A DNA stretch of 64,000 bases, from contig JAITNH010000003.1 of assembly GCA_031290575.1 (NCBI GenBank), forward strand, positions 1-64,000. Reading direction: 5' to 3'. The notes under the pieces are model-generated. The model had not been told where the DNA came from and did not search any database. It was given only the letters and a program-made list of their open reading frames with translations. Numbering within the stretch: the stretch's first letter is position 1; each line of letters begins with the position of its first letter. The DNA comes from Endomicrobium sp. (GTDB lineage: Bacteria; Elusimicrobiota; Endomicrobiia; Endomicrobiales; Endomicrobiaceae). Made by a program: the position numbers and the translations under genes. Below, piece after piece: positions 31,142-36,175 of this stretch.

Positions 31142-31726
31142 TTAATTTTTAAAATTTTGGGTCAACTCTTCCATATAAGCTTTGGAATGTAGACAAGCAG
31201 GACATTTTTCCAAAGCCTCCTTACTTTCATATACATAACCACAATTACGACATTTCCACATTGTTTTCACATTCTTTTTAAAGATCATATCATTTTCTAA
31301 ATTATTCAACAATTCCAAATATTTTGATGCATGATACCGTTCAGCTACAGCAATTCTCTTAAAACATTCTGCTATCTCGGAAAAACCTTCCCCATCGGCA
31401 ATTCTTCCTGCTTCAGGATAAAGATTTGTATATTCTTCACTTTCCCCCGCAACGGATAATCTTAAATTTTCAATAGTATTACTAATAATACCAGCAGGAA
31501 AAGTTGCTGTAATCTGAACCGCACCTCCTTCTAAAAATTTAAAAAATCTTTCAGCGTGCTCTTTCTCGTTATCTGCAACTTCAGTAAAAATTGCAGATAT
31601 TTGTTCAAAACCATCTCTTTTTGCCTTCGAAGCAAAATAAGTATACCTCATTCTGGCCTGCGATTCACCTGCAAATGACTCCAATAAATGTTTTTCTGTT
31701 TTTGTGCCTTTGATCGATTTTAGCAT
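31142..31726 (-). CDS. rbr: Rubrerythrin
   Basis: Reduces hydrogen peroxide in anaerobes. The 194-residue protein has the ferritin-like diiron domain (LLESFAGESQARMRYTYF, EVADNEKEHAERFF, AEIAECFKRIAVAERYH) and a C-terminal rubredoxin-like domain (WKCRNCGYVYE...CPAC). The ATG at 31726 is preferred to an upstream TTG; GAGGT lies ten bases before it. It is last in a string of oxygen-defence genes and probably takes electrons from the rubredoxin encoded at the head of that string. Confidence 0.96.
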   Translation of the reverse strand: MLKSIKGTKTEKHLLESFAGESQARMRYTYFASKAKRDGFEQISAIFTEVADNEKEHAERFFKFLEGGAVQITATFPAGIISNTIENLRLSVAGESEEYTNLYPEAGRIADGEGFSEIAECFKRIAVAERYHASKYLELLNNLENDMIFKKNVKTMWKCRNCGYVYESKEALEKCPACLHSKAYMEELTQNFKN

Positions 31727-31824
31727 AATCAAAATACCTCACCTAAAGATATATTTTCATTCAACTTTCTATATTTTAACTTTATTAAACCATCTTGCTC
31801 AAACACACTATAATTTTCAATAAC

Positions 31825-31935
31825 CTATTTTTTTTCTTTCCATCTATTTTCAAATAAACAATAAGCTACAGGGTCCACATCATCGTAATCATGACACCAG
31901 AAACAAACTTTACCATTAATATAGAAACACTTCAC
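31825..31935 (-). CDS. Candidate 36-residue Cys-containing protein between FprA and rubrerythrin genes
   Basis: I do not recognise the family. From a GTG at 31935 the frame encodes a peptide with four Cys (CFYINGKVCFWCHDYDD, then AYC) and a charged end (FENRWKEKK). The composition, with CFWCH, DYDDVDP and NRWK, is far more protein-like than chance in this AT-rich DNA. The CxxC suggests metal binding. There is no clear ribosome site, and an in-frame TAA directly precedes the GTG, so it could instead be the surviving 3' end of a longer gene. It lies on the same strand as and between fprA and rbr. Confidence 0.42.
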   Translation of the reverse strand: MKCFYINGKVCFWCHDYDDVDPVAYCLFENRWKEKK

Positions 31936-32007
31936 TTACAAATCAAAAATATACAGCAAGACAAAAGAGCTTAACATAGAACAAGAATCATCAATAACAA
32001 AAAATAT

Positions 32008-33201
32008 TTATTTTTCATCTTTAATTTTTAAAGCAAAGGCTTTACCTATTTCAAAACATTTTTCCAATTCTTCCCCGGTAGGATTAAAAACAACTCTTAA
32101 AGATGATCCAAATAACGTAACGTCAACAAGAGTATTTTCAATATCTTTCACGGCTTCACCGCTCCATCCATAAGAACCAAATGCAAAAGATTCATGACCT
32201 TTGGCCTTAGATCCTTTAAGAAAATGTAAAAACCCCGCAATAACAGGAAGCATTTTCCCATCATATGTTGACGAGCCAAAAATCCAACCTTTTGAGTCAA
32301 GCATATAGGAAGCAATGTTTGTCCTATCATTTTTCGTTACATCAAATAAAACGTGCTCAACACCTTCTGAACTTATTCCTTCAACAATTTTCTTAGCCAT
32401 TTTTTCAGTAGAATTCCACATTGTCTCATAAACTATAGCAATCCTATTTTTACATGAATGAGATGACCAGTATATATATTTCTGCATAATTTGATATACA
32501 TGTTTGCGCCATACAAGTCCATGACTTGGTGCAATAAGCTCAATATTAAGATTTAACTTATCCATAGCATTAAGTTTTGAAGTAATAAGCACACTAAAAG
32601 GCCAAAGTATATTTGCATAATACTTTTGTGCCTCATCCATCAAAGTATAAAAATCGACTTCGTCATCAAAAACATTGCAGGTAGCATAATGTTGTCCAAA
32701 AGCATCATTAGAAAATAGAATTTTATCATATACAGAATACGTAAACATACTATCTGGCCAATGTATCATCGGTACATCTATAAATTCCAAAGTCCTCTTA
32801 CCAATATTTAGATTTTGTCCTGATTTTACAACATTCCAATCACAGACTATTCCATAGTATTTTAAAAGACCCAATCTTGCCCTTTCGGTTCCATAAATTT
32901 TTGCATTTTGACATATCTTTAATATTTCCGGAAATGCACCTGAATGATCCGGCTCGATATGATTAATAATTATTGCATCTATCTTTGAAGGATCAACAAT
33001 AGTTTTTATGTTGTCTATTAATTCTTTTTCAAAATCTTTACATACTGTGTCAATTAAAGTGATTTTCTCATCAACAATTAGATACGAGTTGTACGTAACC
33101 CCTCTTTTTGTCACATACGAATGACCATGAAAACACCTTTTATTCCAATCTACCACACCAACCGCATAAACACCATTTTTTATCAATCTAGATAATGCCA
33201 T
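32008..33201 (-). CDS. FprA-family flavodiiron protein
   Basis: Cytosolic enzyme that reduces oxygen to water, or NO to N2O, using electrons from rubredoxin. In 397 residues it has a metallo-beta-lactamase-like diiron domain with HIEPDH (H81, E83, D85, H86), IHWPDSMF, FSNDAFGQH and APSHGLVW, followed by a flavodoxin domain (IVYETMWNSTEKMAKKI onward) that binds FMN. The ATG at 33201 follows AAGGAG by five bases; the frame is open upstream but without family similarity. It follows the zinc-ribbon peptide gene by 34 bases. No fused rubredoxin is present, so the separate rubredoxin gene at 35.3 kb is the likely partner. Confidence 0.95.
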   Translation of the reverse strand: MALSRLIKNGVYAVGVVDWNKRCFHGHSYVTKRGVTYNSYLIVDEKITLIDTVCKDFEKELIDNIKTIVDPSKIDAIIINHIEPDHSGAFPEILKICQNAKIYGTERARLGLLKYYGIVCDWNVVKSGQNLNIGKRTLEFIDVPMIHWPDSMFTYSVYDKILFSNDAFGQHYATCNVFDDEVDFYTLMDEAQKYYANILWPFSVLITSKLNAMDKLNLNIELIAPSHGLVWRKHVYQIMQKYIYWSSHSCKNRIAIVYETMWNSTEKMAKKIVEGISSEGVEHVLFDVTKNDRTNIASYMLDSKGWIFGSSTYDGKMLPVIAGFLHFLKGSKAKGHESFAFGSYGWSGEAVKDIENTLVDVTLFGSSLRVVFNPTGEELEKCFEIGKAFALKIKDEK

Positions 33202-33235
33202 TAAAACTCCTTTACCATCATACAAAATCACAGCA

Positions 33236-33430
33236 TTAAATATTGCTTTTCTCTGAAACGCAAGTAGGGCACTTATTGTATTCAACAGCGTACTCAGATT
33301 TACATATAGAACATAGTTTTACTTTACTCTTTTCTTTTATGCAACAAGGCTTACAAAATTCAGGGCTCATACAAGCCATCCTCAATTCTTTTTCACAATT
33401 AGGACACGAACAAGCATTATTTATAAACAT
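33236..33430 (-). CDS. Small Cys-rich protein, probable double zinc ribbon
   Basis: A 64-residue protein with eleven Cys. They fall in pairs such as CSCPNC, CKPCC, CSIC and CPTC, as in zinc-ribbon or rubredoxin-like knuckles. I do not recognise a named family. AAGGG lies upstream of the ATG. It begins four bases after the NifU-like gene and is followed by fprA, all on the same strand, so co-transcription is likely. It may bind zinc or iron, perhaps as a metal chaperone or redox partner; that is inference from Cys pattern and context only. Confidence 0.75.
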   Translation of the reverse strand: MFINNACSCPNCEKELRMACMSPEFCKPCCIKEKSKVKLCSICKSEYAVEYNKCPTCVSEKSNI

Positions 33431-33434
33431 ATTA

Positions 33435-33812
33435 TCATTTCCCTTGTTTTATATTATAGTTTTTAACTGCCCTATGCAACGCATCCGCTCCAAGATTAGA
33501 ACAATGCATTTTATTTGCAGGAAGGCCACCCAAAGCCTTCGCAACATCCGCATTTGTAAGATTCATTACTTCTTCCAGTGTTTTCCCTAATGCTATTTCT
33601 GAAACCATAGAAGAAACAGCTATCGCAGCACCGCATCCAAACGTTTTAAATTTAACATCTTTAATTCTATTATCTTCAACTTTTATATAAAAAGTCATCA
33701 TATCTCCACACACAGGATTGCCTACTTCCCCTATGCCATCAGCGTCTTCTATTTCTCCAACATTTCGCGGATTTGCAAAATGATCCATAACTTTTTCTGA
33801 ATAAAACGCCAT
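33435..33812 (-). CDS. Fe-S cluster assembly scaffold (IscU/NifU N-terminal type)
   Basis: Scaffold on which Fe-S clusters are built from Cys-derived sulfur. The 125-residue single-domain protein has the three cluster Cys of the family: GNPVCGDMM, TFGCGAAIA and KMHCSNLGA, and the Asp after the first. The start is the ATG at 33812, five bases after GGAGG. It is downstream of a NifS-like gene, as usual, but that partner lacks its PLP lysine, so sulfur may come from another desulfurase. Confidence 0.93.
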   Translation of the reverse strand: MAFYSEKVMDHFANPRNVGEIEDADGIGEVGNPVCGDMMTFYIKVEDNRIKDVKFKTFGCGAAIAVSSMVSEIALGKTLEEVMNLTNADVAKALGGLPANKMHCSNLGADALHRAVKNYNIKQGK

Positions 33813-33879
33813 CACCGCCTCCAGTATTCTACAACATTTTTGATAAAATAAACAAACAATAGCATCACAAGGATTATCT

Positions 33880-34029
33880 TTATACTTGCAACAACATCTG
33901 ACGTTCGTTATCTACAAAAACGATACTACATAATATATATTCGGATATTTTTATTTTAGGACATTCTTCTACCACTTTGGCTTTATATTTATAAGTAGTA
34001 GTATTTTTAATATCATCGATCAAAATCAT
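33880..34029 (-). CDS. Candidate 49-residue protein coupled to the NifS-like gene
   Basis: The ATG overlaps the NifS-like gene's stop codon (TAATG), the usual layout for translational coupling. The frame runs 49 codons with a plausible composition (MILIDDIKNTT at the start, AKVVEECPKIKISEYILC in the middle, two Cys) and ends 68 bases before the NifU-like start. I recognise no family. It may be a small accessory protein or the head of a gene that has lost its remainder. Confidence 0.38.
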   Translation of the reverse strand: MILIDDIKNTTTYKYKAKVVEECPKIKISEYILCSIVFVDNERQMLLQV

Positions 34030-35255
34030 TAATCACTTAAATTTACTCTAAAATCTATTAATTTTCTTTTGCCTGTCCGCATAAAGTATGAATATAACGG
34101 AGATATATTTCTTAATTTTTTAACAATTTTTGGAAATTCTTCTAAAATATAATTAATATCTTCTTCTGTGTTAAACCTTGACAAAGTAAACAAAATTGAA
34201 CCTTGTCCTATACTAACATCAACATCCATAGCACTAAGAACGTGCGAAAGTTTAAGATTCTTGTTAGAACATGCAGATCCACTCGCAGCCATAATACCTT
34301 TGGCATCTAAAAGTAGAAACATCGCTTCCCCTTCAATAAATTCTATCGAAAAATTTACATTCCCAGACAAACGATTATCACGTGCACCATTTAAGTAAAT
34401 ATATTTTATTTTTTTTGGAAGTTCTCTAATCAACTTATCTCTTAACATCTTAATACCATCATTTTCTTTAGCACCTTCTTCTTTAAAGATCTCGCATGCT
34501 TTTCCGAAACCAACAATCGCAGGCAAATTCTCAGTACCTGAACGCTTAGAATTTTCTTGGATACCACCATCTATTTGAGGAGTAATTGCTACACCTTTTC
34601 TAAGATACAAAGCAGCTACACCCTTAGGTCCACACATAACAGAAGGCGAAAAAGTCAAAGCGTCAACGCCTAAACTCTTAACATCTACGAAAATTGCCCC
34701 ACAAGAAGCAACTGCATCCGTATGGAAAATAATGAAATCATTTACTTCGCTATTTTTAACTATTGAAGCTAGTCTTCTGATATCTTGTATCGTACCGATT
34801 TCTGGGTTTGCATGTTGTATAGATACCAAAACTGTATCTTTCCTTAGCAATTTTACAAGTTCAACCTCAATTACTTTACCTTGTTTATCAACAGGAAGAT
34901 ATGTTACATCAAAATTTTCGGACCGTAATCTTTCAACAGAATTCAAAACTGAAAGATGTTCAATTGCAGAAACAATAATATGCTTTCCTTTATTTTTCAA
35001 AGCATCAGCAATGCCTTTAATCGCTAAATTATTTGATTCAGTAGCACAAGAAGTAAAGATAATTTCTTCATTGTTTGCATTAATCAAATTTGCCACTTGA
35101 TGCCTCGCTATATCAAGAGCTTCTTTTGAAATAGAACCTAATGAATAAATACTTTGAGAATTACCATAATATTCAAAAAAAAATGGCTTCATTACATCAA
35201 AAACTCTATCATCAAGTCTGCTATTTGATTGATTATCTAAATATATCTGTTTCAT
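34029..35255 (-). CDS. NifS/IscS-like protein lacking the PLP-binding lysine
   Basis: By full-length similarity (408 residues) this is a class I cysteine desulfurase homologue, a PLP enzyme that supplies sulfur for Fe-S clusters. Retained features are His100 (AIEHLSVLN), ATESNNLAIKG, HTDAV, RSGTENLPAIVGFGKA and the sulfur-accepting Cys329 in ASGSACS. The PLP lysine motif, SxHKxxGPKG in the family, reads SPSVMCGPKG, with Val206 in the Lys position (codon 34638-34640) and Ser for His. The Gln after HTDAV is also lost (HTDAVA), the start has LDNQSNSR instead of a NATT-like motif, and NNEIG reads NPEIG. Internal aldimine formation is therefore not possible in the normal way. The frame is intact and lies between rubredoxin and the scaffold gene. 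Confidence 0.9.
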   Translation of the reverse strand: MKQIYLDNQSNSRLDDRVFDVMKPFFFEYYGNSQSIYSLGSISKEALDIARHQVANLINANNEEIIFTSCATESNNLAIKGIADALKNKGKHIIVSAIEHLSVLNSVERLRSENFDVTYLPVDKQGKVIEVELVKLLRKDTVLVSIQHANPEIGTIQDIRRLASIVKNSEVNDFIIFHTDAVASCGAIFVDVKSLGVDALTFSPSVMCGPKGVAALYLRKGVAITPQIDGGIQENSKRSGTENLPAIVGFGKACEIFKEEGAKENDGIKMLRDKLIRELPKKIKYIYLNGARDNRLSGNVNFSIEFIEGEAMFLLLDAKGIMAASGSACSNKNLKLSHVLSAMDVDVSIGQGSILFTLSRFNTEEDINYILEEFPKIVKKLRNISPLYSYFMRTGKRKLIDFRVNLSD

Positions 35256-35273: not shown

Positions 35274-35432
35274 TTATTCTTTTTCAAAAACTGTTTTTGG
35301 TGCACTACAAACAGGACATACCCAATTCTCGGGAAGCTGTTCAAAAAGCGTGCCAGGAACAACACCATCTTCAGAAATACCTATATTGGGATCATAAAGA
35401 TATCCACATACAGAACATTTTCTTTTCTCCAT
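35274..35432 (-). CDS. Rubredoxin
   Basis: Small one-iron electron carrier. The 52 residues have both iron-binding knuckles, CSVCGYLYDP and CPVCSAPK, and the conserved WVCP. AGGAGAGGT precedes the ATG at 35432; an upstream frame adds 11 residues that overlap this site. It heads a string of eight same-strand genes and is the likely electron donor to FprA and rubrerythrin. Confidence 0.95.
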   Translation of the reverse strand: MEKRKCSVCGYLYDPNIGISEDGVVPGTLFEQLPENWVCPVCSAPKTVFEKE

Positions 35433-36175
35433 ACACCTCTCCTTATTTTCTACATTAAACAACAATTATAATAATCATTTCATTCTTCTAAAACTACTAC
35501 AAACAACAGTTATCAACTTTCTTAATCTATATTTAACCTTTGTTCTACGTTTTTATTATAGTTTTAGATTTAATTTTATGTTATGCATATTTTTTCAAAA
35601 TTATTATTGATGGATTGATTTAAAGGTATACGATTGTTGTTACAAACCATATATTCAAAAACTGCTGTGCTATCCATAATACAGTTATTTCTTTTATACC
35701 ATTTAACATCATTATAACATTAATAATTACATTCTTAACTGCTGCATTCTATAATTCTATACTAAATTTAGATATACTTAAAAGCAAGAGCTTAACATTA
35801 TCAAACAACATTTTTATTGCAACATATCCATCATATAAATCTACTTTTAGCAAATTATTAAACAATACCTACAAATAACATCGTATCATATTTTAAAACC
35901 ATCATATACAGTAAAATTTGTGCTATCCATTTTATGGTACCACTGACAATAACCATAGATGTAATTCTTTACCTTATACATCAATATAAATTATTCTATT
36001 AAATTCTTTAGCCCTACTCATCACATATCATCCAAAATATTTTTCTTCATCTAACATATTCGTACCATTACTATTTCCAAACTACAATTAACTAATAGTG
36101 CCCATCAAACAAATAAGATTCTTTCTTTTGCTTAAAATACTCATATAAGTCAATATAAATATTTAAAACAAGATA
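35433..36175. other. Long AT-rich gap upstream of the oxygen-defence string
   Basis: About 740 bp between obg and rubredoxin. No recognisable gene or RNA. The 11-mer GTGCTATCCAT occurs twice, at 35667-35677 and 35930-35940. On the - strand a few protein-like fragments separated by stops (such as RAKEFNRIIYIDV near 35990) suggest a decayed gene, but I cannot identify it. Confidence 0.45.

Follow-up and report, generated by a model that had tools for sequence, protein, structure and literature searches.

A NifS/IscS-like protein of Endomicrobium sp. carries Val in place of the lysine that binds PLP in cysteine desulfurases, and belongs to an old Lys-less clade which spans several bacterial phyla, evolves under enzyme-like constraint and is tied to IscU. 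The protein is encoded in the window, which here means the whole stretch of DNA analysed (64,000 nucleotides, contig JAITNH010000003.1, positions 1 to 64,000). The annotation 'cysteine desulfurase' is probably wrong for the Lys-less genes of the clade. The Lys-less protein is probably a desulfurase fold that no longer carries out PLP catalysis and has been retained to serve IscU specifically. The clade takes in bacteria whose sole scaffold is that IscU and in which SUF is absent. It makes testable whether a desulfurase protein does more than supply sulfur, by ligating the cluster and providing a platform for assembly.

In the literature accessible to the search, Lys-less IscS is described in two archaea only, A. 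fulgidus and M. acetivorans. No literature on a bacterial Lys-less IscS clade was found by a search covering largely papers outside subscription, so the evidence for novelty is weak. Neither A. fulgidus nor Elusimicrobiota is mentioned in one review that deals with bacterial desulfurases. The new points are the broad bacterial Lys-less clade, the His-rich tail of its Elusimicrobiota members and the oxygen-defence operon.

Residues, clade and constraint

The Lys-less gene occupies positions 34029–35255 on the minus strand and has an ATG start and an uninterrupted frame encoding 408 amino acids. Its product matches Pfam Aminotran_5 (PF00266, E 1.1e-65), which corresponds to the class V aminotransferase fold, and scores below every NCBIfam desulfurase cut-off (best TIGR03402, 449.9 bits versus 530.75). 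Residues 203–212 read S-P-S-V-M-C-G-P-K-G. In the alignment with E. coli IscS, Lys206, the PLP lysine of the family, is replaced by Val206 (codon gtt, 34638–34640, minus strand), His205 by Ser205, Gln183 by Ala183, Asn155 by Pro151 and Arg354 by Leu355. His104 (His100 in the window protein), Asp180 (the same number in both) and the loop residue Cys328 (Cys329; codon tgt, 34269–34271, minus strand) are retained. An earlier sequence-only reading had reported Val at the PLP lysine site with Ser before it, Ala for Gln, the kept Cys329 and His100 and the open frame. Every residue named in it was correct; the loss of Arg354 had been overlooked in its list of substitutions, and the strand had been left out.

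The residue comparison covered 143 distinct proteins without the lysine and 66 with it (sister set), picked by similarity to the window copy, so that the counts do not represent prevalences. Site 206 of the Lys-less proteins is occupied by Gln (80), Val (43), Pro (6), Glu (5), Ala (4), Ser (2) and by Thr, Ile or Met (1 each, the Met coming from locus L120). Lys206 is found in 0/143 of them versus 66/66 of the sister set, and among the best 80 loci in the genome collection the lysine is absent in 78 main matches. Arg354 shows the same distribution (0/143 versus 66/66), Gln183 nearly the same (1/143 versus 66/66), and His205 and Asn155 are usually lost too. His104 and Asp180 are present in all 143 Lys-less proteins and loop Cys328 in all 142 readable ones, the remaining protein ending at a contig edge before the site. 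The alignment with orthologues and E. coli IscS, which had been proposed as a check, thus found no Lys at the site in any distinct orthologue. Sequencing error at Val206 is excluded on these grounds, and the Lys-bearing orthologues that had been considered as an objection were not found.

The lysine of the GPKG motif was considered as a general stand-in for the PLP lysine and rejected, because Arg, Val, Pro, Leu, Gln or Ser stands there in 13 of 125 Lys-less proteins. A scan with the pattern QFYGPKG (the Gln variant) gave 2/101 for Chloroflexota and 10/100 for Elusimicrobiota; it is specific, very insensitive and blind to the Val copies, so no prevalence is given. A plasmid search returned distant matches only, all below 60% identity.

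The tree was built from 69 sequences after the six changed columns had been taken out. All 35 bacterial Lys-less proteins included form one clade (support 100/99), in agreement with a larger quick tree. Its members come from Elusimicrobiota, Chloroflexota (Dehalococcoidia), Nitrospirota, Aminicenantes, Thermodesulfobacteriaceae, WOR-3 and MAGs labelled Deltaproteobacteria. Judged from these sequences, the lysine loss is old and predates the spread of the gene across several bacterial phyla. IscS of A. fulgidus branches close to the bacterial clade with no firm placement, a single origin being recovered in 42% of bootstrap trees.

Comparison of Lys-less and Lys-bearing sets thinned to 75% identity (57 Lys-less sequences) reveals gain as well as loss of residues. 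N155, Q183, K206 and R354 are lost in the Lys-less set, while two residues are fixed in 57/57 of its sequences: S102, located two residues past the active-site His, where Lys-bearing proteins mostly have Ala, and K335, which closes the Cys loop and aligns with E334 of E. coli, where they mostly have Glu.

Genus members compared with the window copy mostly give dN/dS values of 0.11–0.23, with up to 0.36 for three fast-evolving reduced genomes, and close pairs give 0.1–0.2; these values are rough, as dS is close to saturation in many pairs, and about 1 is expected for neutral decay. The ratio of dN in the Lys-less gene to dN in the Lys-bearing paralogue of the same genomes has a median of 1.03 (105 genome pairs, with lineages shared). 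A recently dead or decaying gene could be suspected from the small symbiont genome, from the missing His-rich tail of the window copy and from the loss of the gene in four related genomes. This is nevertheless extremely improbable: the window copy has only 4 changes across 126 near-invariant columns, within the range of other members, and the idea of a very recently dead gene, raised by the sequence-only reading, fails because the lysine was lost before the multi-phylum spread, dN/dS is low (0.1–0.2) and the gene evolves at the same pace as the paralogue. Neutral dN/dS, the sign of decay named there, was tested for and not found.

Gene neighbourhood and scaffold complement

The Lys-less gene lies between a rubredoxin gene directly upstream (35274–35465, minus strand, profile match) and an IscU/NifU scaffold gene downstream (33435–33815, minus strand), as had been read from the sequence at the outset. 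The 126-aa scaffold keeps three Cys and the Asp and His ligand positions and matches TIGR03419 with 204.1 bits (cut-off 187.9). No further NifU_N protein was found in the window's assembly, which is 34% complete. Among genes with enough flanking DNA, iscU is located directly downstream on the same strand in 120/133 Lys-less versus 8/61 Lys-bearing cases (nominal Fisher P 1.7e-26, relatedness being left uncorrected). Exactly one NifU_N protein (IscU) is present in 35 of 36 Endomicrobium genomes, and none was found in the remaining one. SufB was not found in 59/60 Elusimicrobiota by a search that was positive in 14/14 controls.

Elusimicrobiota genomes that are at least 90% complete (n = 33) contain a Lys-less copy in 29 cases and a copy of a second type in all 33, either alongside the Lys-less copy or in its place. 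The second-type copies are about 40–49% identical, and Lys is present in every one read (a subset of the copies of these 33 genomes). A second, normal desulfurase, for which a genome search had been advised, is therefore present in relatives; it was not found in the window's own assembly (409 kb, 7 contigs), which says little at 34% completeness.

The two genes are far apart in most Endomicrobium genomes. In one genus of the same family (L224–L229), the Lys-bearing gene, the Lys-less gene and iscU follow each other in that order in five genomes; the sixth has the first two in tandem on a contig that ends before iscU. The order in G054 is Lys-less, iscU, Lys-bearing, and all three genes form one row in a separate family (L129). 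Four genomes (G018, G007, G029 and G038; L175, L176, L177 and L178) keep iscU, and the Lys-less gene was found neither beside it nor elsewhere in them, so that the Lys-less copy is dispensable where the Lys-bearing paralogue remains; these natural losses would lend themselves to comparison. The Lys-less copy is the only one seen in two cases whose completeness is not established, a Dehalococcoidia chromosome and a WOR-3 genome.

In many Endomicrobiaceae the gene row consists of rubredoxin, Lys-less nifS, iscU, an 11-Cys protein, FprA, desulfoferrodoxin and rubrerythrin. The row of the window is complete except for desulfoferrodoxin: iscU is followed by the 11-Cys protein (33236–33430), the FprA-type flavodiiron protein (32008–33285, profile match) and rubrerythrin (31142–31732, profile match), which ends the conserved row, all on the minus strand. 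Desulfoferrodoxin, encoded in relatives between fprA and rubrerythrin, is absent at 31733–32007 and was not found elsewhere in the incomplete assembly. Rubredoxin, flavodiiron protein and rubrerythrin in the row point to a possible role during oxygen damage to clusters.

The 11-Cys protein has 64 amino acids, is zinc-ribbon-like and matched no Pfam or NCBIfam family. It is conserved in the genus, many Endomicrobium genomes having it in the position after iscU and before fprA (also at L037:6706–6897), and is a candidate metal-binding partner of the gene row. The approximately 700 bases upstream of rubredoxin (35470–36175) contain no convincing gene and possibly represent a decayed one.

Predicted fold and possible functions

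The AlphaFold2 model of the window protein has a pLDDT of 90.6, with low confidence in loop 328–334, as expected for a mobile loop. Among known structures, Foldseek ranks those of A. fulgidus IscS nearest to the model (4R5F/4HVK, with a TM of 0.98 when scored by target length; 4EB5 is also near). This protein (PDB 4EB5, 4EB7, 4HVK; D199K mutant 4R5F) likewise lacks the PLP lysine, has Ala at the Gln183 site and Leu at the Arg354 site, and retains His104, Asp180 and the loop Cys. Papers citing the original work describe A. fulgidus IscS as having no desulfurase activity and as ligating, through a Cys, the [2Fe-2S] cluster that IscU carries (PMC7585200; PMC5176006). It works with IscU; what the window protein shares with it in this respect is the adjacency of its gene to iscU. 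It differs in being archaeal and about 45% identical, in having Asp199 instead of Val or Gln at the lysine site, in keeping Asn155 and in having no fixed K335. The likeness is one of residues and fold.

Methanosarcina acetivorans IscS1, which belongs to one of three IscSU pairs, also lacks the catalytic lysine, and a mode of action like that of A. fulgidus IscS has been proposed for it (PMC7585200); this archaeal protein was compared with the window protein by description only. E. coli IscS and bacterial NifS (type I) share with the window protein the fold, length, Cys loop and C-terminal SPL(Y/W) helix, but possess the PLP Lys, Gln183 and Arg354 lost in it. IscU docks near the C-terminal helix of E. 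coli IscS (PMC2854127), and this helix is kept in the Lys-less proteins, where S385 is invariant and P386 nearly so (alignment A1). The K206A and Q183E variants of E. coli IscS are inactive, and K206A retains some PLP (PMC9978102), so the Lys-less pocket may not be empty. The minimal iron-sulfur (MIS) system, MisS + MisU, is similarly a two-gene pair of desulfurase-like and IscU-like proteins without carriers (PMC12442378; PMC12192291). MisS, however, is described as a cysteine desulfurase, whereas the window protein lacks the residues needed for this. Set beside MIS-type features, IscU is present and SufB absent in 59/60 genomes, but the desulfurase-like partner is without catalytic residues and the Lys-bearing paralogue is usually encoded elsewhere.

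The Lys-less protein is predicted by the model to fold, and would be expected to dimerise, like IscS/NifS. The desulfurase reaction would be impossible for it, since it lacks the lysine that forms the Schiff base, Gln183 as a contact for PLP and Arg354 for the substrate; this inactivity is inferred by analogy with A. fulgidus IscS and the inactive E. coli variants. IscU encoded by the neighbouring gene could dock via the conserved C-terminal helix. The mobile loop of the Lys-less protein could then place Cys329 at the IscU site, where it would ligate the [2Fe-2S] cluster being formed, by analogy with A. fulgidus, and sulfur may be supplied by the Lys-bearing paralogue or as free sulfide. A docking platform with a Cys ligand is favoured because of the A. 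fulgidus-like fold, the precedent of A. fulgidus IscS, the inactive E. coli mutants and the conserved C-terminal helix. In its favour also count the residue pattern, the single clade, the linkage to iscU, the one IscU per Endomicrobium genome with SufB absent, the constraint, the fixed S102 and K335 and the rows that unite Lys-bearing, Lys-less and iscU genes. Against it stand the four genomes with iscU and no Lys-less copy, the PLP left in E. coli K206A and the loose placement of A. fulgidus IscS in the tree. The sequence-only reading had offered a structural partner of the scaffold and a non-enzymatic sulfur acceptor; both remain, the former being favoured. No biochemistry on any bacterial Lys-less member was found in the literature searched.

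Alternatively, the Lys-less protein could relay sulfur: the Lys-bearing paralogue would make the persulfide and Cys329 would pass it to IscU, perhaps within a heterodimer of catalytic and docking subunits. Retention of the loop Cys in all Lys-less proteins that extend to the site, the adjacency of Lys-bearing, Lys-less and iscU genes in several lineages and the second copy in 33/33 Elusimicrobiota genomes of at least 90% completeness, with Lys in each one read, are consistent with such a relay. It is considered rather unlikely, as the two genes are far apart in most Endomicrobium genomes, direct signs of heterodimers are lacking and the Lys-less copy stands alone in the Dehalococcoidia chromosome and the WOR-3 genome of unestablished completeness. 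A wider proposal, put forward tentatively, is that the desulfurase has been split in several bacterial phyla into a Lys-bearing sulfur maker and an anciently inactivated paralogue with new fixed residues (in Elusimicrobiota, also a His-rich, possibly iron-holding tail). It would be this paralogue that truly docks IscU and takes part in assembly with it, perhaps within a heterodimer that includes the Lys-bearing protein.

Two other functions appear improbable. The protein could still hold PLP or PMP without a covalent bond and catalyse some other reaction, in which His100 or Lys335, one of the newly fixed residues, would act as the base; the invariance of His104 and Asp180, the fixation of Lys at the E. 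coli E334 position in 57/57 sequences of the thinned set and the PLP retained by E. coli K206A (PMC9978102) would allow it. Gln183, Arg354 and usually His205 and Asn155 are, however, also gone, desulfurase activity is absent from E. coli K206A and Q183E (PMC9978102), and it is reported absent from A. fulgidus IscS (PMC7585200). The Lys-less protein could also act as a brake or store, binding IscU and keeping hold of the scaffold or its cluster while assembly is unsafe because of oxygen or a poor supply of sulfur. This would fit the oxygen-defence row conserved in many Endomicrobiaceae, but most Lys-less genes outside Elusimicrobiota adjoin iscU without oxygen-defence neighbours, and blocking the sole IscU of the genus would halt assembly.

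C-terminal tails

Lys-less proteins of Elusimicrobiota have a C-terminal tail that begins with AGPGTDY and continues as H/E/D repeats. At least three His occur in the last 26 residues of 41/71 Elusimicrobiota Lys-less versus 0/48 Elusimicrobiota Lys-bearing proteins. The His-rich tail (AGPGTDY.H.H.H) is absent from the window copy (34029–34070) and from several other copies of small-genome symbionts, where it is counted as lost. Where present, it may, speculatively, hold iron near IscU. Nitrospirota Lys-less proteins (e.g., L075, L088) carry another tail, SPYA.GWG...C, and in these loci the downstream iscU match starts while roughly 15 bases of the Lys-less gene are still to come.
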